Positions 32,223 to 55,875 are shown, numbered from the stretch's first letter. The stretch: DNA of 64,000 nucleotides from an uncultured Pelagibacteraceae bacterium (GCA_902596675.1 CACJUO010000006.1:1-64000); one strand, 5' to 3'. Translations and numbers: made by a program. The notes: generated by a model from the letters alone, not told the origin.

Positions 32223-32247
32223 TTATAAGTCTTATGTAAATAAATTA

Positions 32248-33303
32248 TCAAATAACGATTTTTTTTAAATAATTTAAAATTCTTTTATTTAATGAATTTA
32301 ACATTTTATAATTAAGATTAATTTTATAACTTTTATTTTTAATTACTTTTTCTATTTTACTAAAATTTTGGTCATCTATGTTAATATAATGGTTTGAATT
32401 ATAATTTAAAAACGACAATTTTTTTTGATATTTTTTATCAAATAAAACTTTGGTGCCCATATTTAAAGCATCAATTGTGAAGAGAGAATAAGGATTTTCT
32501 GGTGATGAAATAATTAACCTTGTAATTTTAAGAAGTTTTTTGACTTTTGCCCTGCTTATAATTCCAAGATTTTTAAGACCTTTAATATTATTAATTTTAT
32601 CTCCAACACAGCTTACACTATAACCTTTTTTTAAAAGATATTTTATCAGGTTATTTAATTTAAAGTGTTCTTTTACAGAATAATTTCTATTATAGATTAG
32701 TAAATCGATTTTTTTATTTTTAACAGATTTTCCGTTTATTTTTAAATTAGAAAACAAAAGATAATTAAAATTTAGTTTATGATAATCTCTTTTTAGAAAC
32801 ATGCTTGAAAGTAAATCTGTAGAAAAAAGTAAACTTTTAAATCTTTTAAAAATTACAAACATCGATAATCTATAAAAAAATGGGACTAAAATAATTCTTA
32901 TTAATGCTGAAATATTTTCTATTTTTTTTTTAGGTAAAAAACCTGTTATAGGTCCTATTAATGTTTTTGGGGGTAAAAAATAAAATAATAAGAAATTCCA
33001 CAATGGAATAAAATTAAGATATAAAACTTTTTTACTTTGTAAATAGTTTATCCACAGATAGAATATACCAAATAAAGGCCAATAATAATTTTCAAACAAA
33101 GAAAAATTAATTATTTTTTTTTCATTTTTTTTACTTTTTTTAATTTCACCATTGGAAACAAAATAAGTGTTATCAGGAGTTTTAACAAAAATATTTACTT
33201 TTTTAATATTTGAAATGTCCTTTGCAAAATTTCTGGCTAGAATGCCTTCGCCTCTGAATGAAGAAAAATCACAAGCCCATGCAAATATTGTTATTTTTTT
33301 CAT
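32248..33303 (-). CDS. Glycosyltransferase (GT-B/GT4-like)
   Basis: FRGEGILARNFAK; ISSPENPYSLFTIDALNMGTKVLFD. Confidence 0.6.
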   Translation of the reverse strand: MKKITIFAWACDFSSFRGEGILARNFAKDISNIKKVNIFVKTPDNTYFVSNGEIKKSKKNEKKIINFSLFENYYWPLFGIFYLWINYLQSKKVLYLNFIPLWNFLLFYFLPPKTLIGPITGFLPKKKIENISALIRIILVPFFYRLSMFVIFKRFKSLLFSTDLLSSMFLKRDYHKLNFNYLLFSNLKINGKSVKNKKIDLLIYNRNYSVKEHFKLNNLIKYLLKKGYSVSCVGDKINNIKGLKNLGIISRAKVKKLLKITRLIISSPENPYSLFTIDALNMGTKVLFDKKYQKKLSFLNYNSNHYINIDDQNFSKIEKVIKNKSYKINLNYKMLNSLNKRILNYLKKIVI

Positions 33304-34748
33304 TTATAGAAATTTACTATTATTTTTTTAAAATATTTTCCGTATAAGATATATTTAACCATATAAGTAGCTGATAATACCAGTCGTTTTAATCTTCTTT
33401 TTGTTTCATATCTTAATCTCCAAAGCCATTCTAATCCAAGATAATCAAATAACTTAGGGACTTCTTTTTCATCTCCTGCAGCAATTGCTAAACCTCCGCC
33501 TATACAAACAATTTTAAGATTATTATTAATTGTGTGATAGTAAAAAGCAACTTGTTCTTGTTTGGGCGTTGGCAATGTTAAAAATATTAGTTCATTTTCA
33601 TCAACTGATGGTAAATCACTGATAATAGTTTTGATGTCTCCATAAGGTAGGTTCGAATTTTTTAATTCCAAATCTGAAAATTTTCTGCTTAAAAATTTTT
33701 TTGTTTTACCTGTAAGGTTTCCAATTACATGAAGTTTTCGAATATTTTTAGGTTGCTTAATTAGTTCTATCAATTGCCTCCCTGCAATTTTTTTACTTTT
33801 TTGGATCATTATTTTGTGGAAGATACCATCTCCCCAAAAAAATAAATTTTTCGAAACTTTTATGTCCCCTTTGTAGAGAAAACTCAATGAAGCTAAATTT
33901 AATGCAGAAAGGATATATCCTTTGTCCCATTCAAAATTAATATAATCTCTTATAAGTCTAATATTAACTTTTATTTTTTTTAAATTATAAAAATTTTTCT
34001 TAAATAAATATGAAGAAATTATTAAGAAAATGAAAATACCACCTGATATAAACACTCTTTTAAAAATTTTTTTAGGATTAAGAATTAATCGAAACAACCA
34101 TTCAAATCCATATTTTCTAAAAACCATAGGTGCTCTTTTTTCTAGTCCTGTAAAAAAATTAAATGCAGCACCTATACTTAAAAAATTAACACAATTTAAA
34201 TTCCTGGAATTAATTTTTACCCATTTTTCTTGTTTAGGGGCTCCTAATCCTACAAATACAATATCTGGATTAAATTCATTTATATTTTGAACTATTTTAT
34301 GATCGTCAAACTTGAATTTACTACCGAACGGAGGCGATAAAATTGCAATATTTTCTGAGTGAATATTTTTGTATTTCTCACTAATTTTTTTTTTAAGATT
34401 TTCTAAATTTGAAATTTCACCTCCAATAAAAAAAAGTTTTATTTGATGAGGATTATTATTTATCTTCTCTAATAACTTCTCAAAAAAATCATAGCCTGTA
34501 ATACGTAAAGGTTTTGTTTTTTTTTTGTAAAAAATTAAAGATGAAAAATAAACTCCAATACCATCTACAAATATATGTTTACTTTTTAAAACTGATCTCA
34601 TAAAGGATGAATTTTTTAAAGTTTCTATATAAGAGTGTGTATTAAAAAAAATTAGATGTTTAAAATTTTTATTATCTCTGTTCAATAATTGGTCTAAAAC
34701 TAAATCTGGATTACTAATTAGCTTAAGATTGTCTATATATTTTTTCAT
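33300..34748 (-). CDS. Tandem WecG/TagA/CpsF-family glycosyltransferase (two WecG-like domains)
   Basis: N-half FVDGIGV, FVGLGAPKQEKW, IGAAFNFFTGLEKRAP, GFEWLFRL; C-half GDGIFH, LTLPTPKQEQV, IGGGLAIAAGDEKEVP, GLEWLWRL. Confidence 0.8.
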   Translation of the reverse strand: MKKYIDNLKLISNPDLVLDQLLNRDNKNFKHLIFFNTHSYIETLKNSSFMRSVLKSKHIFVDGIGVYFSSLIFYKKKTKPLRITGYDFFEKLLEKINNNPHQIKLFFIGGEISNLENLKKKISEKYKNIHSENIAILSPPFGSKFKFDDHKIVQNINEFNPDIVFVGLGAPKQEKWVKINSRNLNCVNFLSIGAAFNFFTGLEKRAPMVFRKYGFEWLFRLILNPKKIFKRVFISGGIFIFLIISSYLFKKNFYNLKKIKVNIRLIRDYINFEWDKGYILSALNLASLSFLYKGDIKVSKNLFFWGDGIFHKIMIQKSKKIAGRQLIELIKQPKNIRKLHVIGNLTGKTKKFLSRKFSDLELKNSNLPYGDIKTIISDLPSVDENELIFLTLPTPKQEQVAFYYHTINNNLKIVCIGGGLAIAAGDEKEVPKLFDYLGLEWLWRLRYETKRRLKRLVLSATYMVKYILYGKYFKKIIVNFYK

Positions 34749-35466
34749 ATTTATAATTGTATTTTGTAGAATAAATTAATTTATAAAAAAATTTTCTTGA
34801 TGTAAATTTTGATATAATAAATTTTATAATCTCTTTAGCTAAACCTTTAATATCTAAATTTTTTTTCATTATTATCGTTTTTAGAGAAGGAAATGTTGAT
34901 AAACCATCAAGAGAAAAAATAGTTATTGGCAAATATATTTTTTTCAGACCATTTTTTTTAATATTTTCTTTCATCCAATCTCCATCAGCAGTAATTAAAT
35001 AGTTTTCATCATAAAAAATAATATCATTTTTTTTAACTGGGGATCTCACAAAGGAACTATGGGTAAAAGTATTTTTATCATAAAAATATTTTTTTTTAGG
35101 AAAAAATAAAATATTTTTATATTTTAAGATAGTAACAAACTGCCCATTTAGATTTTTTTTTATTTTATTATTTATAATTCTTAGAGAGTTTTTTGAAAAA
35201 AAAATATCTCCTGAATTTAAATAAATTGTAAAATTATCATAAGTTAATTTTTCACCAATATTCATAGCATTATATATTGATGAATCTTTCCCAACAATAA
35301 ATTTTATTTTGTTTGATTTATTTTTTTTTAAAAATTTTTTTTCCAATTTTTTAGCGATAATAAAGTGTTTATATTTTTTAAAACTTTGATTTTTTACTGA
35401 GTCTATGGTTTTTTTTAAATCTTTTTTATTACCATCAGAGACACTAATAATATTGATTATTTTCAT
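34723..35466 (-). CDS. Family 2 glycosyltransferase (WcaA-like)
   Basis: KIINIISVSDGNKKDLKKTIDSVKNQSFK, YNAMNIGEKLTYDNFTIYLNSGDIF. Confidence 0.75.
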   Translation of the reverse strand: MKIINIISVSDGNKKDLKKTIDSVKNQSFKKYKHFIIAKKLEKKFLKKNKSNKIKFIVGKDSSIYNAMNIGEKLTYDNFTIYLNSGDIFFSKNSLRIINNKIKKNLNGQFVTILKYKNILFFPKKKYFYDKNTFTHSSFVRSPVKKNDIIFYDENYLITADGDWMKENIKKNGLKKIYLPITIFSLDGLSTFPSLKTIIMKKNLDIKGLAKEIIKFIISKFTSRKFFYKLIYSTKYNYKYEKIYRQS

Positions 35467-35469
35467 CTA

Positions 35470-36435
35470 TTAAGAATTATTTTTTAAATAATCTAAATAT
35501 GTTAATTCTAAAGCAATTTCTAATTTAGTTTTTTTAAAATTAATAATTTTTCTTAATTTTTTTGTGTTTAATAACTTTCTTAATGTCCCATCTGGCATGT
35601 TTTTACGAAATAAAATCTTATTTTTAAAACCTATTATTTTACTCAAAATTGTTACTAATTTTTTAATACTTATCTCTTGTGAACTACCTATGTTTAAATG
35701 TTTGTTTTTGAAACCATTTAAGTAAAATTTTTTCTTTGATACTCTCAATAATTTTTCTACAACTGATGCCAAATCATCAACAAATAAAAAATCTCTCTTT
35801 GCCTTTCCTGTCCCCCAAACTTCTAGAGTTTTATTTTTAATTTTTGCTTCATGGATTTTTCTTATAAGTGCTGGAATGACATGGCTGTCATTAAGATCAT
35901 AATTGTCTCCATAACCAAATAAATTTGTTGGCATTAAACTTCTATAATCTAAATTATGAGTTTTTTCGTATTGTTTGTTATAAAATTCACACATTTTGAG
36001 ACCTGCTATTTTAGCAATTGCATATGCTTCATTGGTAGGTTCTAAATCACCAGATAACAACTCCTCCTCTTGTATTGGCTGTTTTGAGTATTTTGGATAT
36101 ATACAACTTGACCCTAAAAAAATTATTTTACGAATATTATTTAAAAAGGCTGAGTGAATTAAATTATTCTGAATTGAAATATTTTCATAATAAAATTCTG
36201 CAGGTTTCTCGTTGTTTATTTTTATTCCACCAACTTTTGCGGCACAAATTATAATAATTTTAGGTTTTTTTTTCTTGATAAAATTTTTAACTTTAACAAA
36301 CTCTGTCAAATTTAATTTTTTTTTATTTACGGTTATTATATTTTTATATTTATTTTTTTTTAAACACTTAACTATTGCACTTCCCACCATACCATTGTGG
36401 CCTGCAACAAATATTCTATCTTTTTTGGATATCAT
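35470..36435 (-). CDS. fcl: GDP-L-fucose synthase
   Basis: [54 protein letters not shown]. Confidence 0.93.
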
Positions 36436-37522
36436 TTTTTTTTAATTCAATTTTGGATAAGTATAAATCTTCTTCAACCATTTCTTTCACCATAGATTGA
36501 AAAGATATCTTAGGTTTCCATCCTAAAACTCTTTTAGCCAAAGATGAATCGCCTTTTAAATTTTCAACTTCTGTGGGTCTATAATATTTCTTATCTATTT
36601 TAATAATAGTTTGATTTAAATTTAAATTTGGAAATCTTTTTTTATCAAAACTTTTTAATATTCCTACTTCTTTTAGACCTTTGTTTTTCCAAATAATTTT
36701 TAACTTCAGAGCTTTACATGATATTTCAACAAATTTTCTTACGGTATATTGTTTATTAGTAGATATAACTAAATCATATGGTTTTTTTTGTTGAAGCATA
36801 AGCCATTGCATTTTTGCATAATCTCTCGCATGACCCCAGTCCCTTAATGCATCTAAATTACCTAAATACAATGTCTTCTCCAAACCGTAACAAATTTTGC
36901 TTAAACCTAAAGTTATTTTTCGAGTTACAAATGTTTCTCCTCTTCTAGGAGACTCATGATTAAATAAAATTCCATTACAGGCGTGAATACCGTATGCTTC
37001 TCTATAATTTTTAACAATCCAATAACTGAATAATTTAGATACGGCATATGGTGATCTAGGATAAAATTTTGTTTTTTCGTCCTGAGGAATTTTTTTTGTG
37101 TTTCCGTAAAGTTCTGAAGTGGATGCTTGGTAAAATTTTATTTTTTTTGTCATATTGAGTAACCTAATGGCCTCTAATATTCTTAAAGTCCCCAAAGCAT
37201 TAACATCAGAGGTATATTCTGGAATTTCAAAGCTTACCGAAACATGAGATTGTGCTGCTAAATTATATATTTCATCTGGCTTAATTTTTTGAATTATACT
37301 TATGATACTTGAACTGTCTGTTAAATCTCCATAATGAAGAAAAAATCGTTTACCTTTTTTATGAATATCTTCGTAAATATGATCAATTCTGGCCGTATTG
37401 TTAATTAAAGATGCTCTTCTTTTAATTCCGTGAACTTCGTAGTTTTTATTTAATAAAAACTCTGCCAAATATGAACCATCCTGTCCAGTTACACCCGTAA
37501 TTAAAGCTTTTTTTTTTTTCAT
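36416..37522 (-). CDS. gmd: GDP-mannose 4,6-dehydratase
   Basis: [59 protein letters not shown]. Confidence 0.95.
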
Positions 37523-38604
37523 ACAAATTTATTTATAATTTTACATACCAATCTTATATCTTTTTCTGAATGTGAAAATGAAATTGGCAAACTTATAACC
37601 GATTTGTGAATTTCTTCTGATATTAAAAAACTTTTATTTATAATTTTTTTTAAAGAATTTTGTTTATGAGGAGCAACAGGATAATGACAGGATACCTCAA
37701 TTTTATTTCTTTTTAGGTAATTAATTAAATTTTTTCTGTTTTTGTATCTTATAGGATAAATATGATATACGTTTTCTCCATTTTCTGATGGTGCAGGTTT
37801 AACCACTTTGTCAGTCAGATGTTTGTCATAAATTTTTGCTAATTTAATTTTGTGTTTATTCATTGAATTAAGTTTTTTTAATTTTTTATTTAAAAAAGCA
37901 GCCTGAAAATCATCTAACCTAGAATTAAAACCAATAATTTCAGTAAAATTTTTTTTTTTGAAGCCATAATTTCTAAGATAATTAAGATTTTTAAAAAATT
38001 TTTTTTGATTTGTAGTAACAATTCCTCCATCTCCTAACCCACCTAAATTTTTTGTTGGATAAAAGCTAAAACAACCGAATTCACCAAAGGTTCCAGTAAA
38101 TTTATTCTTATATCTTGATCCATGCGATTGGGCACAGTCCTCTATCAAAAATAATTTATACTTTTTTTTAATATTTATTATTTGATCCATTTGGCAAGAT
38201 CTCCCATACAAATGTGTAATTAATATTGCTTTAGATTTTTTAGTAATTTTCTTTTCTATTTTATTTGGATCAATTGTGTAAGTATTAATGTCAGGTTCAA
38301 CTAAAACTGGTTTAAGATTATTTGCCAGAACTGCATTCAATGCTGCAATATATGAACATGATGACATTATAACCTCTGAATTTTTTGGTAAATTTAAACA
38401 TTTCAATGAAAGAAATAGTGCATCATATCCACTATTAACTCCAACAGCATATTTTGAATTTAAAAAACTTGCAAAATTATGTTCAAAAGTTTTTAAATGT
38501 TTACCAAGTATATATGAACCCGAATTCCAAAATGAACTAAAAACTTTTTTAAAATTTGGAACTGTTGCTTCATTAACTTTTTTTAAATTTTCATATCTAA
38601 TCAT
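37519..38604 (-). CDS. DegT/DnrJ/EryC1 sugar aminotransferase (FdtB/QdtB-like)
   Basis: [45 protein letters not shown]; next to a QdtA/FdtA-like gene. Confidence 0.9.
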
Positions 38605-38608
38605 AATC

Positions 38609-38968
38609 TTAATAAGGAGTATCTATATAATCGTTTTTTTTATAATTTTCTGAGCATAATACAAGTAATATACAATTTTTAGAAAAATTTTTCATGAAGT
38701 GCCAATCTCTTGGATTAAGCAAAAGGCATTTATTTTTTTTGTTCAAAAGGTATTTTTTTTTTGATTTATTATCATTAACAAATATTTCACAGTAACCGTT
38801 AATACATATAAGCGCTTGTGTATTTTTTTTATGTCTATGTTTTCCTCTTATTCCAACAGCGTCGTAAATAAAGTAAACTCTTTTTATTTTAAAATTAATT
38901 TCTTTTTCTATTACTGTAAGTGTACCCCTATTATCTTTAAAATTTTTAAGATTTATTATTTTTGCCAT
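38609..38968 (-). CDS. dTDP-6-deoxy-hex-4-ulose 3,4-ketoisomerase (FdtA/QdtA-like cupin)
   Basis: FKDNRGTLTVIE, IKRVYFIYDA..GIRGKHRHKKNTQALICINGYCEI. Confidence 0.88.
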   Translation of the reverse strand: MAKIINLKNFKDNRGTLTVIEKEINFKIKRVYFIYDAVGIRGKHRHKKNTQALICINGYCEIFVNDNKSKKKYLLNKKNKCLLLNPRDWHFMKNFSKNCILLVLCSENYKKNDYIDTPY

Positions 38969-39927
38969 TATTTTATTTTTAAAAAATTTTCATTCATCAT
39001 TAATCTTTTAATTAATCTAAATATAAAAATACCCTCGGTATAATATTTTTCATAAAAATTAGTGTCTTTAAATATTTTATCTTTATTTAATTTTTTTGTT
39101 ATACTAAGCAATTTCATCAAATAAGGTCTGTAAATTTTTTCCTTTATATTATCTGTAATTCTATAGCCTCCTATATAAATAGTTTTTTTGTTTAAAAGTT
39201 TAACACTATGAAAATGATAAAATATTAAATTAAACTTAATTTTATTGTTTAATTTTAAAAATTTTAAATTTTTCAAAGCTTTATATTGTTGAACATTCCA
39301 GGGCGCAACACCACCACCTAAATTATTTAAAATATGCACTTTATTGTATTTTTTAGGCCATTTATCTAAATATTTTTGATCTCCAAATTTACCGTTTTCA
39401 AATCTATTATAGCACCATTTAATACATTGCTTCCTCCAATCAGAAAGTATTTTTTTTCCTTCTAAATTATTCTTAAAATACATAAACTGAACACAATATA
39501 TCCCACTTGTATCTGTTTGATCGTACCTTTTAGAGTAATTATGTTTTGATATTATACATGAGGATTTATTTGCCTCATTGATTAAAATTTTAGGATCTCT
39601 GTAAAAGAATAAATCTGCATCTAAATATGTACAAGATTTTAATTTAAATTTTTTAAATAAATAAAGAATTGTTGATCCAGTACATGTCCAGAAATACTCA
39701 GTTTGCGTTCTTTCTTTTTTTATTTTTTTTAATTTTTGATCTTCGAAATCATTTAATGAAATAACAATAACATTTTTTAATTTTTTTTTTTTAAGAAATT
39801 CATATGTCAAGTTATCAAATGCAAAAACAAACAAATTAAAATTTTTTGTGACTTTTTTAAGTGAATAGTACAAACTTAATCCTCTTGATAGGTAACTAAA
39901 ATTGAATAATGTGCAATAATTCTGCAT
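38968..39927 (-). CDS. GT-A fold glycosyltransferase (GT8-like)
   Basis: TYLDADLFFYRDP DXD motif; GDQKYLDKWP. Confidence 0.6.
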   Translation of the reverse strand: MQNYCTLFNFSYLSRGLSLYYSLKKVTKNFNLFVFAFDNLTYEFLKKKKLKNVIVISLNDFEDQKLKKIKKERTQTEYFWTCTGSTILYLFKKFKLKSCTYLDADLFFYRDPKILINEANKSSCIISKHNYSKRYDQTDTSGIYCVQFMYFKNNLEGKKILSDWRKQCIKWCYNRFENGKFGDQKYLDKWPKKYNKVHILNNLGGGVAPWNVQQYKALKNLKFLKLNNKIKFNLIFYHFHSVKLLNKKTIYIGGYRITDNIKEKIYRPYLMKLLSITKKLNKDKIFKDTNFYEKYYTEGIFIFRLIKRLMMNENFLKIK

Positions 39928-40634
39928 TATTTTTTTTTTGCCACAACTAAGTTGTCTAAATACATATCGTTATTATTTGGAAAAATAGAAATTATTAAAC
40001 CAATAAAATTGAAAAATGAAAAAAATATTAAGCTTAAACTTTTTGATAAAAAGTTTTTATTTTCATATAATTTTTTATAAATATAACAATTAAGAAGTTG
40101 AGCTATTACAGATAAATCATTTCCAATTTTAACTTGTTCTAAAATTTCAAAATTTTCTTTTTCGAGAATATATTTTAATCCAAAAGAAGTATACCTTGCA
40201 TAATCATATGGCTGCTCGTGCTCGTCCCAAAAAAAAGGTAGGGTTAAAATAATTAATCCATTTTTTTTTAATACTCTATTTGTTTCTCTCAAAAATTGGT
40301 TAGGTTCAAAAACATGTTCCAAAACTTCAGAGCATATCGCTGAGTCAAAAGTTTCGTCCCCAAATGGAAAATTCTTTCCATCGTATGTAAAGTCTGCAGA
40401 ATTTTTATTTTCATTTTCAATTTCTAAACCAAAATAACTTTTGCAATGTTTAAATAAGTTTTTATAAGGTTTGTTTCCACAACCAATGTCAATTAAATTA
40501 CCACCTAATTTTGGGGAATATTTTTTATAAAATTTAAATAAATTTCTTCTAGAAAAATAAAATGGATGTACCAGAAATAACCAGTGTGGTTGAAAATTCA
40601 TAAGTGCTATAAATTTTTTAAAATATTTAATCAT
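39927..40634 (-). CDS. Class I SAM-dependent methyltransferase
   Basis: LIDIGCGNKPYKNL, DSAICSEVLEHVFEP. Confidence 0.88.
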   Translation of the reverse strand: MIKYFKKFIALMNFQPHWLFLVHPFYFSRRNLFKFYKKYSPKLGGNLIDIGCGNKPYKNLFKHCKSYFGLEIENENKNSADFTYDGKNFPFGDETFDSAICSEVLEHVFEPNQFLRETNRVLKKNGLIILTLPFFWDEHEQPYDYARYTSFGLKYILEKENFEILEQVKIGNDLSVIAQLLNCYIYKKLYENKNFLSKSLSLIFFSFFNFIGLIISIFPNNNDMYLDNLVVAKKK

Positions 40635-41391
40635 AATCAGTTTTCTTATTTCGGAAATAAAGATTGAGGTACTTTAACTGAAAAATTTCAGGCTTAGTAA
40701 TTTTTTTTTCTTCTAAAATATACTTTTCTTTAAAAAAGTTTAAAAAGGAATTATAACTTAAAATCCAGCTAGGATAAGTTGATTTATAAACATTTTTACT
40801 TGGTTTTTGAACATAAATTTCATCAAAAATTTTCTGGCTAAATGGTGTTTTAAGAATAATTATATAATCAGGGTTTAAATTTAACAAATCCTTTAATAAC
40901 TTTTGATATTTTTCTAAGTATTGCAATGAACTTGAGGCAATTATTATGTCTGGTAAAAAAATGTTTTTATACTCTTCAATATCATTGAAAAAATTTAATT
41001 CATTATTTTGAAAATTTTTTTTACCTTCTATAACAAAATTTTTTTGCTCAATTATTGACCAATTGAATTTATTTTTTATTTTATCTTTATACTTAAAATA
41101 TAGGGATCCTAATGAACCGCCAAAATCTAGTATATTAATTGATTTATTTTTATCTGAATAATTTTTAAAAATTTTTAATAGATATTCATCAATATCAATT
41201 TGGTATGAAATTACAGAGTCTCTCTCATAACCTTTTTTTGTATTTTTTACATGCAATGCAGATTTGATTACCTTTTCAAGTATTTCTTTTGAGTCATAAC
41301 CTACTGAATTAGCCCTAGCTATTGCCCAGTTTTTGTATGGGCCCTTATAATAAATTTTTCTTCTAACAAATTTTTTAATTAAATTAATCAT
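40627..41391 (-). CDS. TIGR04325-like methyltransferase
   Basis: Y.NWAIARANSVGYDSKEIL, NILDFGGSLGSLYFKYK; internal ATG at 41391 fits the upstream gene end better than 41460. Confidence 0.65.
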   Translation of the reverse strand: MINLIKKFVRRKIYYKGPYKNWAIARANSVGYDSKEILEKVIKSALHVKNTKKGYERDSVISYQIDIDEYLLKIFKNYSDKNKSINILDFGGSLGSLYFKYKDKIKNKFNWSIIEQKNFVIEGKKNFQNNELNFFNDIEEYKNIFLPDIIIASSSLQYLEKYQKLLKDLLNLNPDYIIILKTPFSQKIFDEIYVQKPSKNVYKSTYPSWILSYNSFLNFFKEKYILEEKKITKPEIFQLKYLNLYFRNKKTDYD

Positions 41392-42277
41392 TTTGAAATA
41401 ATTTATTAAAAAATTTTTTAAAAAGATTATTTTTAGAAATAAAATAATTTTCGAATTCATTCCTTAAATCCATATCTTCTATAATCGGTATATTTTCCAA
41501 TTTAATAGGGATGTTTCGTAATTTATTGTCATATATTTTACTATTTGAGCTATTTGTTCCACTTCCATCATTTCCAATATTATGGACCAAAGAATGAGGT
41601 GGGTACAATGTAAGTTTATTTTTTAAGAATGCACTTGCGTACCATTTGATAGCCCAACTGCTATTTTTATCACTCAAAGTTTTCTTTAGTAATTTAAAAT
41701 AATTATAACTATTATTGAAATTAAATTTTTTTTCATAATTATTTTTTTTTATTTCACTATACAAATAATTAGAATCATCATTGTATAAATTCCAACCTCT
41801 TCTCCATGTCGCCCATCCCCAACAATCAGCTCCTTTTAAAAAGGAAGGTTTTAAAATTTTTTTTTCTAAAGGATAAATATAACCGTGAATTGATATTACA
41901 TCGCTTTGATGTTCAAAAAATATTAGTGCATCATTCATATATTTTAAAAAAAATTTATCAGTTAGTAAATCGTCCTCCAAAACAATTATTTTGTCATTTT
42001 TTTCTAAAATTTGTGAAATACCATTTACTAAATTTTTAGCTAAACCAAAATTTATTTCTCTTTCAATAAGAGTTGTAGATTTAAAATTATTTAAATTTGA
42101 GCAATATTTTCTTACACTGTTTACCAACGGTATATCAGCCGATGTTTTGGCACTGTCTGAAAATATATATAAGTCAGATTTATCTGCATATAAATTATTG
42201 GATAATGAATTGAGTGTTTTACGAACATGTTCAATTCTATTGTAAACAAATAAAGCTATCGGTGCTAGTTTTGACAA
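41384..42277 (-). CDS. GT-A glycosyltransferase
   Basis: ALFVYNRIEHVRKTLNSL, IIVLEDDLLTDKFFLKYMN, GWATWRRGW. Confidence 0.75.
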   Translation of the reverse strand: MSKLAPIALFVYNRIEHVRKTLNSLSNNLYADKSDLYIFSDSAKTSADIPLVNSVRKYCSNLNNFKSTTLIEREINFGLAKNLVNGISQILEKNDKIIVLEDDLLTDKFFLKYMNDALIFFEHQSDVISIHGYIYPLEKKILKPSFLKGADCWGWATWRRGWNLYNDDSNYLYSEIKKNNYEKKFNFNNSYNYFKLLKKTLSDKNSSWAIKWYASAFLKNKLTLYPPHSLVHNIGNDGSGTNSSNSKIYDNKLRNIPIKLENIPIIEDMDLRNEFENYFISKNNLFKKFFNKLFQND

Positions 42278-42278
42278 T

Positions 42279-43325
42279 TTACCTCACAATATGTTTAATA
42301 CATGTTTTTTTAACATGACTGTCATCATAAAAATCAAATTCGGTACAACCTAAATCATCTGGAAAAAATGATCCATAAATATCTAACCCAAATTCCTCTG
42401 CAATTTTATTTATTTCGAGATTAGCCTCGTAGATTTTTGGTACAATCCAATCACTTGAAGAAAATACAATTGGATGAAATGGTATAATCAAAATATCTAC
42501 TTCAATGCCTTTGGATTGTATATATTTTATATTATTAATTAAACTTTTTTTTGGTGCATCTTCAAAGTTCAATTCATTGAAACCCCATCTTGCATTTTCA
42601 ACTTTGCGTACATGCTCTCCCTTTCTATTTTTATATTCTCCTGTAAATTCATATGAACCATCAATATTAACTTTTATATTATTAAAATTTGAATTTTTTT
42701 CTGAATTGAAAATAATATTATAAAAATAATATAAATTTTTTTTTAATAATTTTTTATCGTATAGAATTTTTAATTTTTCTCTCAAATTATCAAAAAAAAA
42801 TTTTTTTTCTAAAATTTCTTTATCATTCATTTTAATAAATACACTCTCGAATTTTTTCCATCTTAATTGATAGTCTGAATTATATTTAAATGTATAAGGA
42901 CCCACTCCTAAAAATATTTTTTTAATTTTTTTTTCTCTTATAGTTGTAAAATAAGTATTTATTAAAATATCCTCTAATGAACCTCCTGGTAAACTTAGAT
43001 TTGTGTTTTTTTTACATTTTGGATCAAGTTTATTAATATCCTCTGAACTAATTATAATATGCTGACTTGAACCAAAAAGAAAACAATCATCAAATTTTGA
43101 AAAAAGTGCTAAAGCTCTTTTCATATCTCTGTGCGTAACATTAATCATTTTTGATTTTCCAATATTTATATTTTTTGATATTTGCCTAAGTTCTCTTTGC
43201 ATCAAATTTTTTTTTGAAAATATATTTTCGTAATCAACTAAGTAATTAAAAATACCAATTGAAGAAAAAGATGAAAAAATAATAATTAAAAAAAATATTG
43301 AAAATTTTTTATCTTTTAATTTCAT
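42279..43325 (-). CDS. SGNH/DltD-like membrane-anchored protein
   Basis: N-terminal TM, FLFGSSQH, C-terminal FYDDSHV (D..H); overlaps the MBOAT stop. Confidence 0.6.
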   Translation of the reverse strand: MKLKDKKFSIFFLIIIFSSFSSIGIFNYLVDYENIFSKKNLMQRELRQISKNINIGKSKMINVTHRDMKRALALFSKFDDCFLFGSSQHIIISSEDINKLDPKCKKNTNLSLPGGSLEDILINTYFTTIREKKIKKIFLGVGPYTFKYNSDYQLRWKKFESVFIKMNDKEILEKKFFFDNLREKLKILYDKKLLKKNLYYFYNIIFNSEKNSNFNNIKVNIDGSYEFTGEYKNRKGEHVRKVENARWGFNELNFEDAPKKSLINNIKYIQSKGIEVDILIIPFHPIVFSSSDWIVPKIYEANLEINKIAEEFGLDIYGSFFPDDLGCTEFDFYDDSHVKKTCIKHIVR

Positions 43326-44776
43326 CAGAATTGAAAATAAATAAATTTGTATGAACTAGTAAGATTTATTAAATTAAGAACGAATAAAATTGACATCGCA
43401 ATTAGATAACTAAATTGTCCATTAAATTTTTTTTGTAATTGATTTGTATTTTTAAATAAAAATATTATTATTCCTGATAAAATCAAATAATAAAACAAAA
43501 AGCTATCTGTTCCTAAATTATATAAATATGTTCCAAACTCTATATTTTTATTAACACTAGAACCAATTAATGTTTCAAGACTGCCTGGTAAAACTATTTT
43601 ATTTAACCCTAGCATCGATTTTATAATAGCAATTGATTGACTTATATTTTCAGATCGGAAAAAAATTAAAGTAAAATTTACATAATTCAAAGTTATGAAC
43701 CATGAAATAAAATAACTGAATTTGATACTTATCCTATTAAATAAGTGGTTAATGACAAGTCCTATCCCATGTAAAGCACCAAAAATTACAAATCCCCAAG
43801 TCGCTCCATGCCATAATCCCGCAATAGTCATTGTTATAAAAGTAACAACCATTGCTGCTTTAAATGAAAATAGATTTATTTTCATAACTAAAGGGGTGTA
43901 TATATAGGATGTAATAAACCTTGTTAAAGTTATATGCCAGTTCTGCCAAAACAAAATCAGATTTCTTTGTTTGAGCGGACTATTAAAATTGATAGGTAGT
44001 TTAATATTAAACAAAAGTGCCAAACCAATCGCCATATCTGCATAACCACTTATGTCGAAATATAGCTGAAATAAGTATGCAAAAGTTAATATCCAACTTT
44101 CAATCAAATTAATTTCTAAATAGTTTAAATATCCTACATCAACATAAACTCCAATAGGATCAGCTATTAATACTTTTTTTGATAGTCCAATTATAAAAAT
44201 CAATACTCCTAAGTTGAAATTTTTATAATTAAAAAAGAAATTAGAGTTTTTATTTAGCTGGTTTCTTACTTCTCTAAACAAAACAATTGGGCCAGCAATT
44301 AATTGGGGAAAGAAAGTAACAAAAAAAACATAATCTATAAAAGATCTATTTTTGTTTATGCCTTGCTTTGTGTCAACTATATAGGCAATTTGTTGAAGGG
44401 TAAAAAAACTTATAGCTAATGGCAAAGTGATCTTAAAATAGTTTAGATTATTATCTAAAAAGAAATTTAAATTAAATATCAAAAAATCGACATACTTAAA
44501 AAAAAATAAAATACAAATATTAAAAATTATTGCAGAAAAAAAAAAGTTGATATTATTTATATTCTCTTTAATTTTTTTTGAAAATAGATAATTTACTCCA
44601 ATTGAAAATAAAATTAAAAATATATATTCTATTTTCCAATAAGCATAAAAAAATAAACTACTTAATATTAAGAAAATTTTTAAATACTCCTTTTTGAAAT
44701 TTTTAAAAATAACAAAATATATTATTAAAACAAGAGGTAGGAAAATTAAAATGAAACTAAAACTATTAAAATACAT
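43325..44776 (-). CDS. MBOAT family O-acyltransferase (DltB/AlgI-like)
   Basis: FPQLIAGPIVLFREVRNQL, FWQNWHITLTRFITSYIYTPL, AGLWHGATWGFVIFGALHG. Confidence 0.93.
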   Translation of the reverse strand: MYFNSFSFILIFLPLVLIIYFVIFKNFKKEYLKIFLILSSLFFYAYWKIEYIFLILFSIGVNYLFSKKIKENINNINFFFSAIIFNICILFFFKYVDFLIFNLNFFLDNNLNYFKITLPLAISFFTLQQIAYIVDTKQGINKNRSFIDYVFFVTFFPQLIAGPIVLFREVRNQLNKNSNFFFNYKNFNLGVLIFIIGLSKKVLIADPIGVYVDVGYLNYLEINLIESWILTFAYLFQLYFDISGYADMAIGLALLFNIKLPINFNSPLKQRNLILFWQNWHITLTRFITSYIYTPLVMKINLFSFKAAMVVTFITMTIAGLWHGATWGFVIFGALHGIGLVINHLFNRISIKFSYFISWFITLNYVNFTLIFFRSENISQSIAIIKSMLGLNKIVLPGSLETLIGSSVNKNIEFGTYLYNLGTDSFLFYYLILSGIIIFLFKNTNQLQKKFNGQFSYLIAMSILFVLNLINLTSSYKFIYFQF

Positions 44777-44780
44777 TAAA

Positions 44781-45014
44781 TTAATTAATTTTGGATTTAA
44801 TTAACTTTTTTAAATTTTTTATATTATTAATTTCATCAAATTCACTTAAAGCAAACTTAATATTAAATTCCTTTTCGATACTTAAGACAATTTTGATGTG
44901 ATTTAGACTATCCCATTTTTTAACATTTTTATTATTAGAATTAAGCGTGATTTTAGTTTTAATAATTTTTAAAAAAACTTTTTCAATTTTTTTTTGTATT
45001 AATGAATTATCCAT
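44781..45014 (-). CDS. Acyl carrier protein
   Basis: 77 aa; WDSLNHIKIVLSIEKEFNIKF with phosphopantetheine-accepting DSL serine. Confidence 0.92.
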   Translation of the reverse strand: MDNSLIQKKIEKVFLKIIKTKITLNSNNKNVKKWDSLNHIKIVLSIEKEFNIKFALSEFDEINNIKNLKKLIKSKIN

Positions 45015-46734
45015 ATTTTTTTATATCATCAATTTTTATTTTATAATTACCATTTTTGTTTAATTTTAATCCAAAATTACTTAAAAAATTGATTAAGTAT
45101 TGATTTCTGCCTGAATTAATAAAATTAAAACTTATATTATCTAAATTATTATTATTTGCTAATTTATATATTTCTTTTAATAAATAAAATTCAATCTTTC
45201 TAGAAAAAACTCTACAACTTAAAACCCAATTTAGGATTTCCAGTTGATTTTTTTTTATATTTAAATCAAATGCCAATGCTGAGATAATTCCATAATTTTG
45301 AAATTTATCTCTAAAATTCAATGCTTTAAATTTTTTTGAATTGTCTAACAAAAATCTTTTATTAAAAATGTTATTATTAAGTTTAAATTGATTAGTTTTT
45401 GAAAATAACTGTAGAACTCTTTCAATATTATTTTTATCAATGTTTCTCAACGACATTTGAGGTTTTAAACTTTTTAAAAAAACATCTATATTTTGAACTT
45501 TTTTAAGATCTTCTTGAATTTGTCCTATAACTCTATAACTCTGTAATCTCGATTTATCCTCATTTGTAATCGATAAGAAATAAAATAATGATTTTTGATT
45601 TAACAATTGAACAAATTCATATGGATCTTTGCTCATATTTATTACTGTAACTTCTTTATGAGTTTTTTCTACAAGTTCGCACTCCACTTTATTATCATCT
45701 ATAAATACAAATGAGTTTAAATTTAAATTTAATTGTTGGGATATAGTTTTTATGTTAGTGGCCTTATCTAAATAATTTGCTTTAAATATGATTACATCTG
45801 AGAGTTTTAGTTCCATATTTTTATTTTTTTTAAAAACTTCTTTAGCTATTTTTTCATCATTCTTTGATACAACGCATAATAAAATTCCATTATCCACTAA
45901 AGATTTTAAATATCTCTGAAATAAAACAAAGGACTGCCCCTCTACAGTGTCTCCACCTAGTTTTATGTTTTTCCATCCATCATCTCCTACAACGCCGCCC
46001 CAAATAGTATTATCCAGATCTACAACAACAACTTTTTTTGATTTACCCAGTATGCCATTTATGTGACTTGAAACTTCATTGGCTAAATATTTCATAAATT
46101 CCATACTTAATGGTTGTTTAATTAGTGAGTCTAATCTGTAATTAAAAGATGATGTAATATCATATTTTTTGGATATGAATTCTAAATCAATTAATGTTAC
46201 ATTTGTTGGAGCATTTTTTATTAAATAATGATTTAAAAGATTTATGTAATTATTTGAACCTTTAATATTAACGCTATCATTTAATCCCAAATTCGGAAAA
46301 GATGCCTGATTAAAAAGAGATTGTATTAAAGGCTTTTTTATTTTTTTCCATACATTAATAAACTTATTTCCATCAGCTATGATTTTTTTTTGAATTTGAT
46401 TTTTACTTAGGTCTCTTAATGAAAAATCTAAAATAGATGAGTCTGGTAATAATATATAAAAGTCACATTTTTCAGACCAAAATTTTGATTTATTATCATT
46501 AATATTAAAAATTAAATCTCCGTAAATCTGATTATTGATTTTTAAATCAATATCCTTATTTGCTAGAAAAATTTTTAAAAATTCTACAAAATAATTACTA
46601 GTATATGATGAACTAAGATTTATTTTTGTTACATGTTTTAATTTATTTAGTTTTTTTATATTTACTGACAAAACCTCTTCATAGTCATATGAAAATAAAT
46701 TTTTATCGTAAATATCAATAGTTTTTTTTTTCAT
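45007..46734 (-). CDS. FkbH-like HAD-IIIC phosphatase/acyltransferase
   Basis: VVVDLDNTIWGGVVGDDGWKNIKLG, LCVVSKNDEKIAKEVF, FVFIDDNKVECELV. Confidence 0.93.
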   Translation of the reverse strand: MKKKTIDIYDKNLFSYDYEEVLSVNIKKLNKLKHVTKINLSSSYTSNYFVEFLKIFLANKDIDLKINNQIYGDLIFNINDNKSKFWSEKCDFYILLPDSSILDFSLRDLSKNQIQKKIIADGNKFINVWKKIKKPLIQSLFNQASFPNLGLNDSVNIKGSNNYINLLNHYLIKNAPTNVTLIDLEFISKKYDITSSFNYRLDSLIKQPLSMEFMKYLANEVSSHINGILGKSKKVVVVDLDNTIWGGVVGDDGWKNIKLGGDTVEGQSFVLFQRYLKSLVDNGILLCVVSKNDEKIAKEVFKKNKNMELKLSDVIIFKANYLDKATNIKTISQQLNLNLNSFVFIDDNKVECELVEKTHKEVTVINMSKDPYEFVQLLNQKSLFYFLSITNEDKSRLQSYRVIGQIQEDLKKVQNIDVFLKSLKPQMSLRNIDKNNIERVLQLFSKTNQFKLNNNIFNKRFLLDNSKKFKALNFRDKFQNYGIISALAFDLNIKKNQLEILNWVLSCRVFSRKIEFYLLKEIYKLANNNNLDNISFNFINSGRNQYLINFLSNFGLKLNKNGNYKIKIDDIKKYG

Positions 46735-47129
46735 TATTTCTCAATCAACTCAATAATAAATCCTAATTTTGTTAAAAAAAATACTACTTTTTTATTTCTA
46801 AAGGCCTTTGCATTTTTTGGTTGAGAGATTTGTAAATTACCTTGTGAATTCATAGACTTAATAATTTTTTTAAACTTATTTGTTTTATAAGCAATATGAT
46901 TAATAATATTTACATTTTTTTTTAATGTATTGTCTACTGGATTATTTTTACCCAAACCTGATATCAACTCATAACAAATATTCTTTTTGTCATAAAGAAA
47001 TTGTATTTTAACTTTCAAATTTTCATCTTTAATTATTTTAGATTTTTTCTTAATAACTAATGTTTTTTCAAAATATTTTCTTCCTGAAGGAATTGAATGG
47101 ACAAATATACCAATATGATCAAATATCAT
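46734..47129 (-). CDS. VOC/glyoxalase-fold protein (methylmalonyl-CoA epimerase-like)
   Basis: FDHIGIFVHSI..GRKYFE, NHIAYKT, VVFFLTKLGFIIELIE. Confidence 0.75.
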   Translation of the reverse strand: MIFDHIGIFVHSIPSGRKYFEKTLVIKKKSKIIKDENLKVKIQFLYDKKNICYELISGLGKNNPVDNTLKKNVNIINHIAYKTNKFKKIIKSMNSQGNLQISQPKNAKAFRNKKVVFFLTKLGFIIELIEK

Positions 47130-47169: not shown

Positions 47170-47931
47170 TTATTTATAAATTACTATAATCCTTCGACTA
47201 AAGAGTTTATTTTGATTAAGTTTGCTAAAATAATCAATAATTTCAACATCATAGTCTAAATCAGAAAAATATTTTCTAAAATTGTCAACATAGATATTAT
47301 TAACATCTTCAATAATATAAACTCCATCTTTCTTAAGATATTCAATAGAATTTTCAAAAAAATTAATATTTCCTTTATAATCATGAATTCCATCATCTAT
47401 TATTATATCAAAATTTTTTCTATTTATATCGCGCCACATTTTTTTTATACTTTCAGAAGAATACTGGTCTACGAAATATGTTTTGATACGATCTTCATTA
47501 AAAAGTATTCTTTTATCAACATCTGCACCAAAAATTTCAGCATTAGGAAAGTAAGCTTTCCACATATATAGTGAAGCACCTGGCTTACCATTCGATCCCA
47601 TATTAGATGGTATATCCAAATTATTTGAACCAAGACCTACTTCAAAAACTAACTTGTAATCATTTCTCTTCTTTGAAAATAATTTTTGATAAAGAGGCGT
47701 GTAATTGTTCAAAATTTCTCTTTTTGAAATATTTTTATTAATATTCCCTCCTTTGTCAGTACCAAATTTATCTGCAAGTTTATCTAAAGAGTCATTTTTA
47801 GTTATTAACTCAGTGTTAAAGATATAATTATCTTTGTTACGAAAATAAAAATAAAATTTTCTATTTAATAATGGGTAATAAAGAATTTCTCTTAATAAGA
47901 AATAAATTTTTCTAACAAAAGTTCTAATCAT
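47170..47931 (-). CDS. Class I SAM methyltransferase, TylF/macrocin O-methyltransferase-like
   Basis: LADKFGTDKGG, FEVGLGSN, NFDIIIDDGIHDYKGN. Confidence 0.75.
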   Translation of the reverse strand: MIRTFVRKIYFLLREILYYPLLNRKFYFYFRNKDNYIFNTELITKNDSLDKLADKFGTDKGGNINKNISKREILNNYTPLYQKLFSKKRNDYKLVFEVGLGSNNLDIPSNMGSNGKPGASLYMWKAYFPNAEIFGADVDKRILFNEDRIKTYFVDQYSSESIKKMWRDINRKNFDIIIDDGIHDYKGNINFFENSIEYLKKDGVYIIEDVNNIYVDNFRKYFSDLDYDVEIIDYFSKLNQNKLFSRRIIVIYK

Positions 47932-52462: not shown

Positions 52463-53491
52463 ATGATGTTTAATAAATTAAAATTAATTTTAAAAGATTT
52501 AAGAAAATCAAATAAAATAAAATGTATTTTTATTGGTAATACAGTAAAAAAAGAAAGTTCTAGCTTTAATATTTCATTTATAAGAGAAAGTAGTAAATTT
52601 ATTTACTCATCTATAATTATTTACAACGATTCTTATGCAAAAAAAATTTGTAATTATATAGATGGTAAAGTGGATTATGTTTTCGTAGATTCAGAAAAAA
52701 AAACCATTTCCAAAAACTACAAAAATTTAGTAAATTTAGAGAAAAGTGTAAAAACAAATATCAAAAAAACTAAAGTATTCACATATAAAGGAAATGATCT
52801 TACCGTTCAGGCTGCAGAAACATTTTTAAACAGTTTTTATTTAAATGATGTAAGAGGTGTCGGAGGAAAGAAGGTTTTGATAATTGGTTCTGGAAACATT
52901 GGTTTTAAAATTGGTTTAAAATTAACCGAAAATGGTTCAAAAGTTTATCTTAATAGAAAAAATAAAAGAAAATTAAAAAACATAGTTAAAACTATTAATA
53001 TTGTTAAACCTATCGGCACTTCTTCAACTGCTAAAGAGATAAGTAATTATAGTAAAATATTAAATGAGATTGACATATTAATAGGGGCAACAAGTGGCTT
53101 GCCAGCTATCACAAAACAAGATGTATTAAAATTTAAAAAAAAACTTCTTATTTTGGACATTGGGAAAGGAATTTTTTTTAAAGACGCACTAAAATTTGCT
53201 ATTTCAAAAAAAATTGTTGTGTACAGATTAGATGTTACACCTGCATATAATTCTTATTTAGAGAATATTTTATCAACAAAAAAATTAAATTATGAAAATA
53301 ATTCGAGAATAGTAAAGATTAAAGGATTTATGGCGGCAAAGAAAGGAATTTTAACTGAAAAAAATACACTAATAGTAGATAATTTAAGAAAACCAAAAAA
53401 ATTATATGGAGTGTCAGATGGATTTGGTAGTTTTAAAAAAATAAATTTAAAAACATTTATTAATTTGAAAAATAAAATTATAAAAAAATGA
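52463..53491 (+). CDS. NAD(P)-binding Rossmann-fold protein, function unknown
   Basis: GKKVLIIGSGNIGFKIGLKLTENGSKVYLNRKN; DILIGATSGLPAI. Confidence 0.6.
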   Translation: MMFNKLKLILKDLRKSNKIKCIFIGNTVKKESSSFNISFIRESSKFIYSSIIIYNDSYAKKICNYIDGKVDYVFVDSEKKTISKNYKNLVNLEKSVKTNIKKTKVFTYKGNDLTVQAAETFLNSFYLNDVRGVGGKKVLIIGSGNIGFKIGLKLTENGSKVYLNRKNKRKLKNIVKTINIVKPIGTSSTAKEISNYSKILNEIDILIGATSGLPAITKQDVLKFKKKLLILDIGKGIFFKDALKFAISKKIVVYRLDVTPAYNSYLENILSTKKLNYENNSRIVKIKGFMAAKKGILTEKNTLIVDNLRKPKKLYGVSDGFGSFKKINLKTFINLKNKIIKK

Positions 53492-55875
53492 TGAATAAAA
53501 AAGCAATAATTTTAGGTGCAGGTCCAGCTGGATTAGTAACGGGTTGGCTACTATCAAAAAGTGGATGGATTGTAGAAATTTATGAAAAAAATAAAGTTGT
53601 TGGTGGAATGTGCAGATCTTGGAAATGGAAAAATAATATTTTAGATACTGGACCACATATTTTTCATACACCTGATAAAAATATGTGGAATTTTTGGAAT
53701 AAAAACTTTGGACATCTATTAATAAAAGGGGAATTCTGGGCAAAAAATACTTATGGTGATGATTTTGAAAATTTATATGACTATCCACTATCATATCAAT
53801 CAATTAAAAAATTTGAGAAAAGTAAAAGAGATAAAATTTATCAGGAGTTAAAAAATTTAAAAAGAAATAGAAATAAAAAAACAAAGAATTTTCATGAACA
53901 TGTTTTAAATCAAGTTGGCACAACATTAACAAATATGTTTTTTAAGGATTATCCAGAAAAAGTTTGGGGTGTAAGTACATTAAAAATGACCTCTGAGTGG
54001 GCACCAAAAAGAATTAAATTCGAAGATAAAATTCTGCCTTTTTTTAGTGGGGAATATGCAGCTGTAGGAAAATATGGTACAGGGAGTGTTTACGAATTTT
54101 TAAAAAGAAAAATTTTAAAAAAAGGGGGTAAAATTTTTTTAAATCAAGAAATTGTAAATTTTTCAAAAAAAAAATTTGAAATTAATAATATTCACTTTAA
54201 AAACAAAAAGAATTTACCTGTCAAAAAAGATAGTATAATTATTTCAACACTTCCGATTACTTTTACTGCAAGGTTGTTAGGATATAAATCAAATTTAAAA
54301 TTCAGAGGCGTAAGAACAGTATATGTCTTAATCAAAAAAAGAAAAGTATTACCAAAAAAAAGTCATTGGATTTACTATTCATCAAAAGACATTATTTTTA
54401 ATCGTGTTTCTGAGCATAAAAAAATGACAAAATTTGTCTCACCAGAAAATCAAACATGCTTAAGTGTAGAAATAGCATATTCTAAAAAAGATAAAATTGA
54501 CAAAATAAACTTTAATAATATAAAAAAAATAGTAAAAAACGATTTAATTAAAACTGGTCTAGTAACAAAAAAAGAGATTATAGATTTTGCAGAGAATAAA
54601 GAAGATTTTGTTTATCCTGTTCAATTTTCAAATTATAAATATGAACTTTCTGAAGTTAATGCTAAGATTTCAAAATATAAAAAAATTTATTCATTAGGAA
54701 CTGGTGGTGAATTTAATTATGCTGATAGCCAAATATTATTTCATAAATCTATGGATTTAGTAGATACATTGAATAAAAAAGACTCAGTTTTAAACCAAGT
54801 TAGGAAAAAAGATTATACAATGAATTTAAATGCTAAAGTTAAACTAGGTAAATACTTGGTAGGTGATGAATGTCCTGTATATATAATTGCTGAAGCTGGA
54901 TTAAATCACAACGGTGACTTAAGTATTGCAAAAAAATTAATAGATGAGGCAAAAAAAGCAGGATGCAATGCTATTAAATTTCAGACATATGAAGCAAAAA
55001 GTCGAGTTTCAAAAAAAGTAAAGGCTGCAAATTATTTTGAAGAGGCAGATGGTTTGCAAGAAAATACTTATGACATGTTTAAAAGATTAAGCTTAAATTT
55101 CAAAGATACAAAAAAAATATTTGATCATGCAAAAAAAAGAAATATAGAAATTTTTTCTACTCCTTTTGATTTAAAAAGTGTTGATTATCTTGAAAAACTG
55201 AATGTAAAGTTTTACAAGATTGCATCTGTTGATCTTGTAAACTTACCACTTTTAGAAAAAGTTGCTAAAACTAAAAAGCCTGTAATTTTATCAACTGGGA
55301 TGTCTAATTTAGCAAATATCGAAGATGCAGTAGAAGTTTTTAAAAAAAATGACAACAAAAATTTAATTTTGTTGCATTGTCTTTCAGCTTATCCTGCAAA
55401 TAAAAATGAAATGAATTTAAAAGCAATTCTAACTTTAAAAAAAAATTTCAATGTGCCAGTAGGTCTATCAGATCATTATCCATCTGAGGAAATATCGCTA
55501 ATGTCAATTGGTCTTGGGGCAAATATTATTGAAAGACATTTTACCTTAAGCAAAAGTTTTGAAGGCCCAGATCACATTTTGTCAAGTGAACCGTCTGAAA
55601 TGAAAAAACTTGTAGATTTTGCTAGAAATTCTAATCATATATTAGGTGACGGCATGAAGATCATACAACAAAGCGAATACCCTACAATAAATTCTCAAAG
55701 AAAAAGTTTATATGCTTCAAAAGATATCCAAGTTGGTGAAAAAATAACCCCTAAAAATCTTACAATAAAAGGTCCGGGTGGAGGAATTCTACCCAAATAT
55801 ATGGATATTGTTATTAATCGGAAAACAAAGAAAAAAATTTTAGAAGATCATCCAATTACTTGGGAAGATATTTAA
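53488..55875 (+). CDS. Fusion: FAD-dependent amine-oxidase-like domain + NeuB-family nonulosonate synthase
   Basis: N: ILGAGPAGLVTGWLLSKSGWIVEIYEKNKVVGGMCRSW; C from M445 (nt 54820): YIIAEAGLNHNGDL...NAIKFQTY...STPFDLKSVDYLEKL...LHCLSAYPA...GLSDHYPSEEIS...IERHFTLSKSFEGPDHILSSEP; SAF-like end. Confidence 0.9.
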   Translation: MMNKKAIILGAGPAGLVTGWLLSKSGWIVEIYEKNKVVGGMCRSWKWKNNILDTGPHIFHTPDKNMWNFWNKNFGHLLIKGEFWAKNTYGDDFENLYDYPLSYQSIKKFEKSKRDKIYQELKNLKRNRNKKTKNFHEHVLNQVGTTLTNMFFKDYPEKVWGVSTLKMTSEWAPKRIKFEDKILPFFSGEYAAVGKYGTGSVYEFLKRKILKKGGKIFLNQEIVNFSKKKFEINNIHFKNKKNLPVKKDSIIISTLPITFTARLLGYKSNLKFRGVRTVYVLIKKRKVLPKKSHWIYYSSKDIIFNRVSEHKKMTKFVSPENQTCLSVEIAYSKKDKIDKINFNNIKKIVKNDLIKTGLVTKKEIIDFAENKEDFVYPVQFSNYKYELSEVNAKISKYKKIYSLGTGGEFNYADSQILFHKSMDLVDTLNKKDSVLNQVRKKDYTMNLNAKVKLGKYLVGDECPVYIIAEAGLNHNGDLSIAKKLIDEAKKAGCNAIKFQTYEAKSRVSKKVKAANYFEEADGLQENTYDMFKRLSLNFKDTKKIFDHAKKRNIEIFSTPFDLKSVDYLEKLNVKFYKIASVDLVNLPLLEKVAKTKKPVILSTGMSNLANIEDAVEVFKKNDNKNLILLHCLSAYPANKNEMNLKAILTLKKNFNVPVGLSDHYPSEEISLMSIGLGANIIERHFTLSKSFEGPDHILSSEPSEMKKLVDFARNSNHILGDGMKIIQQSEYPTINSQRKSLYASKDIQVGEKITPKNLTIKGPGGGILPKYMDIVINRKTKKKILEDHPITWEDI

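Follow-up and report, generated by a model that had tools for sequence, protein, structure and literature searches.

The Dlt system (DltA, DltB, DltC, DltD and DltX) combines a loader, a stand-alone acyl carrier protein (ACP), an MBOAT, a membrane-anchored SGNH-type protein and a tyrosine in an FxYxxF motif. Peptidoglycan O-acetylation by PatA/PatB and alginate acetylation by AlgI/AlgJ–AlgX similarly employ an MBOAT, here with a fused C-terminal FxYxxF motif, and a partner SGNH protein. In PatA the tyrosine of this motif is auto-acetylated and then donates the group to the SGNH partner, and the shuttle mechanism is established for PatA as well as for DltB/DltX (PMC12148441). The same paper, published in 2025, states that outside Dlt no carrier protein is part of the MBOAT/SGNH pathways (PMC12148441). 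FkbH proteins are found with stand-alone ACPs in tetronate and methoxymalonyl-ACP biosynthesis (for example Mad7/Mad8 and Mad14/Mad12), and the accepted role of FkbH is the conversion of 1,3-bisphosphoglycerate into glyceryl-ACP (PMC7489565).

In the window, that is, the whole 64,000-nucleotide stretch of Pelagibacteraceae DNA that was analysed, positions 42279–47129 on the minus strand hold five ORFs, all of which abut or overlap. In gene order, these encode a VOC-fold protein of the glyoxalase/epimerase superfamily (46734–47129, 131 aa; PF13669, 40.5 bits against a cut-off of 27), an FkbH-like HAD-IIIC protein (45007–46734, 575 aa; TIGR01686, 221 bits, cut-off 146.65), a stand-alone ACP (44781–45014, 77 aa; PF00550, 23.1 bits, cut-off 20.8), an MBOAT O-acyltransferase (43325–44776, 483 aa; PF03062, 79 bits, cut-off 27) and a membrane-anchored SGNH-like protein (42279–43325, 348 aa; assigned from motifs). 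A previous sequence-only reading had described five overlapping or abutting minus-strand genes, the coordinates of which were reproduced exactly, and the VOC, FkbH, ACP and MBOAT families it had named each scored above their Pfam or NCBIfam cut-offs.

The cassette resembles Dlt in having a loader, a stand-alone ACP, an MBOAT, a putative membrane-anchored SGNH-type protein and an FxYxxF tyrosine. It differs in that the loader is an FkbH protein, with no AMP ligase or DltA in the operon, in that the shuttle motif is fused to the MBOAT instead of residing in a separate DltX, and in its extra VOC gene and its location in a Gram-negative polysaccharide locus. Against the DltB equivalog model TIGR04091, the window MBOAT scored 144 bits (cut-off 375) and is hence homologous but below the threshold, and the ACP scored far below the cut-off of the DltC model. 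A genuine Dlt operon is ruled out by these cut-offs and by the type of loader. The earlier label of a Dlt-like operon thus describes well how the cassette would work, but not its membership, as DltA and DltX are missing and the DltB model falls below cut-off. Compared to PatA/PatB and AlgI/AlgJ–AlgX, stated to be carrier-free (PMC12148441), the cassette has a dedicated ACP and a loader, and compared to the Mad-type units its proposed outlet is an MBOAT–SGNH pair, while a polyketide synthase, a FabH-like enzyme and dehydrogenases are all absent.

The window FkbH is homologous to 3slr, and its nearest named match (47% identity) comes from a Pelagibacteraceae genome (locus L024), in the assembly of which the protein is split into two pieces. 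The sequence-only reading was to be abandoned if FkbH lacked its catalytic residues, but these are intact: D239, D241, T243, K324, D346 and D347 were identical in 95 of 95 aligned homologues, whether MBOAT-linked or not, and the conserved C507 was present in 94, the remaining one having a gap at this position. The codons of the HAD catalytic residues D239/D241 lie at 46012–46020 and that of C507 at 45214–45216, both on the minus strand. By analogy with its family, the window FkbH probably loads glyceryl onto the ACP, which carries its phosphopantetheine serine, S36, in a WDSL motif (PF00550; codon 44907–44909, minus strand). The genome encodes a fatty-acid ACP of its own elsewhere (106 bits) as well as an AcpS, and the operon ACP is therefore an extra, divergent second ACP. 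FkbH–ACP units were also observed beside GNAT or WcbI-type acyltransferases instead of an MBOAT (L012 7934–10377, L017 7406–9982, L020 5812–8860), and the L017 unit again has a VOC gene. The occurrence of FkbH–ACP with these other acyltransferases suggests a portable charging unit that feeds different outlets.

The MBOAT contains the motif AGLWHGATWGF and aligns with DltB (6bug) around the WHG histidine, corresponding to the catalytic-type His323 (codon 43808–43810, minus strand). Its C-terminal FIYFQF (43328–43345, minus strand) fits the FxYxxF acyl-shuttle motif, and the protein thereby displays the pattern of the MBOAT–SGNH family, a conserved His together with this C-terminal motif. The adjoining SGNH-like protein has an N-terminal TM-like hydrophobic segment, FGSS (S87) after a predicted strand and a C-terminal D334xxH337, giving a candidate triad of S87, D334 and H337 (S87 codon 43065–43067, H337 codon 42315–42317, minus strand). 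All of these features recur in two homologues, those of L162 and L163, each of which adjoins an ACP–MBOAT pair. Profile searches of this protein against Pfam (E up to 10), NCBIfam and PDB gave no match, hhalign comparison with two other MBOAT-neighbour families gave none either, and a broader search across the order recovered the window alone. The predicted structure, built from a 3-sequence alignment, had a pLDDT of 39.8. Since no profile matched and the model was of low confidence, the protein is regarded as a putative SGNH enzyme; the ORF, motifs, TM-like segment and MBOAT neighbour agree with the SGNH/DltD-like assignment made previously, while profile searches and structure prediction lend it no support.

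In the VOC protein, H5, E54, H78 and E127 were invariant among the 14 VOC proteins from FkbH/MBOAT loci. They form a 2-His/2-Glu ligand pattern as in glyoxalase I, with a predicted metal site, and the closest solved relatives (3hdp/2qh0) are annotated as glyoxalase I. Methylmalonyl-CoA epimerase has a Gln at one of these four ligand positions; this identity was ruled out by the ligand pattern together with the TIGR03081 score (32.8 bits, cut-off 114.95). The cassette protein has the fold family and conserved metal ligands of both methylmalonyl-CoA epimerase and glyoxalase I, but is set apart from them by its linkage to FkbH–ACP. It probably acts on the ACP-bound acyl group at C2, and may be a glyceryl-ACP epimerase interconverting D and L forms, which is our best guess.

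The cassette is set in a SAR11-type surface-polysaccharide locus. The co-directional genes downstream (31194–42277, minus strand; Pfam scans) encode glycosyltransferases, methyltransferases, sugar dehydratases, a WecG/TagA family protein and a WecA-type PF00953 transferase, placing the cassette inside a polysaccharide operon, and O-antigen ligase-like, NeuB and CMP-sugar genes lie elsewhere in the window. An unusual 795 aa protein (53488–55875, plus strand), in which a NeuB synthase and a SAF domain are fused to a part resembling FAD/NAD-binding oxidoreductases, belongs to a nonulosonic-acid-like gene set. The window's assembly comprises 1.08 Mb in 47 contigs and is 74% complete. Promoter and terminator scans gave signals no better than those in shuffles.

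Directly upstream of the cassette and on the same strand is a methyltransferase gene (47170–47931, minus strand; weak Methyltransf_24 match, below cut-off), which is a possible member of the cassette that would O-methylate either the acyl group or the glycan. Other methyltransferases adjoin FkbH–ACP in two further loci (L162 and L103), and FkbH domains of peptide clusters have been interpreted as suppliers of methylated glycerate (PMC13122637, PMC10143770). Both observations favour a variant in which the same ACP–MBOAT–SGNH route carries an acyl group other than plain D-glyceryl, either O-methylglyceryl, formed by the adjacent methyltransferase, or another 2-hydroxyacyl group such as lactyl. 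The methyltransferases, however, are not orthologous to one another and may act on the glycan, and the operon has none of the dehydrogenases that take glyceryl-ACP to hydroxymalonyl-ACP (PMC7489565). We consider this variant possible, but less probable than glyceryl, which is the preferred acyl group because of the precedent in the FkbH family.

The association of FkbH with MBOATs was assessed in 299 Pseudomonadota genomes, 42 of which have FkbH above cut-off. Excluding the window, an MBOAT lay within 5 kb of 15 of the 72 FkbH genes in 41 genomes, compared to approximately 0.5 expected at random, which corresponds to an enrichment of about 30-fold over a random-placement null that takes no account of the tendency of both families to cluster in polysaccharide loci. 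An ACP was present at 14 of these 15 FkbH-linked MBOAT loci and at only one of 20 other MBOAT loci in the same genomes (Fisher p 9e-8), while the fused shuttle motif occurred in all 20 of the FkbH-unlinked MBOATs. Among the best 80 FkbH loci from GTDB genomes, a sample biased towards query-like FkbH proteins, an MBOAT was found in 35 and a VOC gene in 14 (flanks of up to 8 kb). FkbH–MBOAT linkage is widespread, and related machines with the loader swapped occur in many bacterial phyla. Homologous operons keep the MBOAT together with FkbH and ACP, a result in favour of the sequence-only reading. On the MBOAT tree, linkage to FkbH needs 11 changes, 8 of them forced by well-supported branches, against a mean of 24.8 after shuffling, so that linkage is clustered but has been gained or lost repeatedly.

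Adjacency could also be explained if the MBOAT–SGNH pair were an ordinary acetyl-CoA-dependent glycan O-acetyltransferase, and the FkbH–ACP unit, with or without VOC, served another transfer or a small metabolite, the two having become neighbours through the gathering of genes in polysaccharide loci. Consistent with this, 57 of the 72 FkbH genes have no MBOAT within 5 kb and FkbH–ACP occurs with GNAT enzymes and without an MBOAT in SAR11; the pair is hence modular, and adjacency alone is no proof of a hand-over. The window itself also contains a second MBOAT (24812–27050; 454 aa, ending in FIYFQF) with an SGNH-like partner of 305 aa (FVLGNS and DSLH), together with a Wzy/O-antigen ligase gene. 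This pair has neither ACP nor FkbH and is presumably of the acyl-CoA type, providing an internal contrast to the cassette. The enrichment of about 30-fold and the restriction of ACP to loader-bearing MBOAT loci nevertheless argue against independent neighbours, as does the fact that the window FkbH groups with those of L024 and L169 in a single supported clade, all three being MBOAT-linked.

More decisive in this respect was the comparison of the MBOATs nearest to that of the window in SAR11, an ACP adjoining every one in all nine loci. In four of the nine (the window, L024, L162 and L169) the loader is FkbH, while in the other five (L113, L114, L163, L167 and L168) it is an AMP-forming, AcsA-like ligase. 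The three ligases that were scanned contain PF00501 and ACAS_N and score below the cut-off of the AcsA model, and the SAR11 AMP ligases score far below that of DltA. The exchange is most apparent between L162 and L163, which have matching flanking genes and a common SGNH–MBOAT pair, with FkbH–ACP in the former and an AMP ligase plus ACP in the latter. On the tree, the loader must have changed at least 4 times across the nine loci; a single clade for the nine was neither shown nor rejected (AU p 0.40). The proposal that FkbH replaces DltA gains from these loci, in which an AMP-forming ligase occupies the place held by FkbH in their relatives. As read from gene content, the loader exchange is the strongest evidence for the mechanism proposed here, and since the loader changed repeatedly while ACP and MBOAT stayed paired, an ordinary acetyltransferase beside an unrelated charging unit appears unlikely. 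Two of the ligase loci show further layouts: L168 has the order possible SGNH-like gene, MBOAT, DltX-like microprotein, ligase and ACP, a Dlt-like layout in alphaproteobacteria, and an AT3–SGNH fusion follows the MBOAT in L114 and L167.

The shuttle tyrosine occurs in two forms among the nine SAR11 loci. It is fused to the MBOAT in three (the window, L162 and L163), and the other six have a shorter MBOAT without the motif and a nearby ORF of 38–50 aa with one hydrophobic segment and an FxYxxF end, although in 4 of these 6 the micro-ORF and the loader gene are on opposite strands, which counts against the mechanism proposed here. One form or the other being present in each, 9 of 9 loci combine an ACP with one loader and one shuttle tyrosine, and on the tree a single change accounts for the fused and separate forms of the shuttle. 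The first 1.89 Mb scanned yielded 7 FxYxxF micro-ORFs compared to 0.4 in shuffles: three lay in SAR11 ACP–MBOAT loci, two immediately followed short MBOATs (L036, L079), and the remaining two were of the DUF5989 type, which Pfam confirmed for one. Microproteins of the latter type, with a FIYTIF-like end resembling the DltX motif, were seen on the minus strand in L024 (13987–14136), L118 (7191–7343; PF19451 confirmed), L170 (5412–5564) and L171 (4261–4413 and 6379–6531). The one in L024 is flanked on one side by a carbamoyltransferase-like gene and on the other by that of a small membrane protein, SxtJ-like as judged by eye, an arrangement that hints at transmembrane carbamoyl transfer of the acyl-Tyr type.

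A clade of FkbH-linked short MBOATs (about 390–460 aa; L027, L038, L040, L042, L052, L054, L070, L080, L083, L087 and L102) has nearly throughout neither the shuttle motif nor a detected microprotein. Such relatives would fit transfer to a lipid-linked intermediate or to a small molecule that is secreted, instead of to a finished surface polymer. For the window this seems improbable, as its MBOAT has both the fused motif and an SGNH-like partner, a combination typical of systems that acylate extracytoplasmic polymers (PMC12148441), and the cassette lies in a polysaccharide operon. Among 197 genomes of the family, FkbH occurs in 9 and MBOAT in 8, a sporadic distribution that could point to a horizontally acquired cassette decaying without function, but all frames are open, the genes overlap and the catalytic residues are intact, making decay very hard to credit. 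No relatives of the window FkbH or MBOAT were found in viral contigs.

Outside SAR11, pSymB of Sinorhizobium meliloti (L023) carries consecutive genes of the VOC, MBOAT, SGNH-like, ACP and FkbH types, and capsule export genes come next. The resemblance between the two loci covers all five gene types, the WDSL ACP and the MBOAT C-terminus, which reads PFLYQGF in S. meliloti; the FkbH proteins are about 27% identical and the gene order differs. The SGNH-like gene between MBOAT and ACP (L023 6698–7927) is annotated as a TonB-dependent receptor, which is very likely a misannotation. Suomilide and aeruginosin were rejected as precedents, since the target of FkbH loading there is a peptide synthetase and the acyl group that the MBOAT attaches to a sugar is another one, and the sphingan papers contained no FkbH or glyceryl transferase. 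The gene sets are already present in public genomes, but in a search covering chiefly open-access literature, and few subscription papers, no published description of FkbH combined with an MBOAT in glycan acylation was found.

We therefore propose, with a probability of about 0.68, that the cassette is an ACP-dependent MBOAT–SGNH envelope acyltransferase in which FkbH takes the role of DltA, the acyl group probably being glyceryl and the acceptor a surface glycan. FkbH would take a glycolytic acyl phosphate (1,3-bisphosphoglycerate by family precedent), dephosphorylate it and load glyceryl onto the dedicated ACP, where the VOC protein would act at C2, possibly by D/L epimerisation. The MBOAT would then move the acyl group from the ACP to the tyrosine (Y480) of its own C-terminal FIYFQF, on the outer-face side of the membrane, and the SGNH-like protein may pass it on to a hydroxyl group on the surface polysaccharide that the neighbouring genes produce. 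The proposal draws on what can be read from the genes themselves, namely their content, the intact catalytic residues, the shuttle motif, the conserved linkage and the exchange of loaders with ACP and MBOAT kept.

A bolder and rather doubtful extension is that such cassettes make up a third and widespread class of envelope acylation, namely ACP-dependent MBOAT–SGNH systems with interchangeable loaders, in which 1,3-bisphosphoglycerate from glycolysis, and not acyl-CoA or an ATP-activated amino acid, gives rise to glyceryl esters on surface glycans, and a glyoxalase-fold glyceryl-ACP epimerase sets the stereochemistry. L-glyceryl, an example of a configuration that such an epimerase might set, is known from gellan, a polymer of Sphingomonas elodea that bears glyceryl esters. 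The loci point to a widespread exception to the carrier-free MBOAT/SGNH pathways, and the natural series of loader exchanges shows which of the parts can be swapped. If the mechanism is true, it would connect a central intermediate of glycolysis to esters on surface polymers and provide a candidate source of the glyceryl esters on bacterial polysaccharides, as well as related systems in hosts that can be cultured, S. meliloti included, for direct tests of loading, shuttling and transfer. For SAR11, which are among the most abundant bacteria in the ocean, the loci point to a variable surface chemistry, and a bearing of this on recognition by phages or grazers is speculation.
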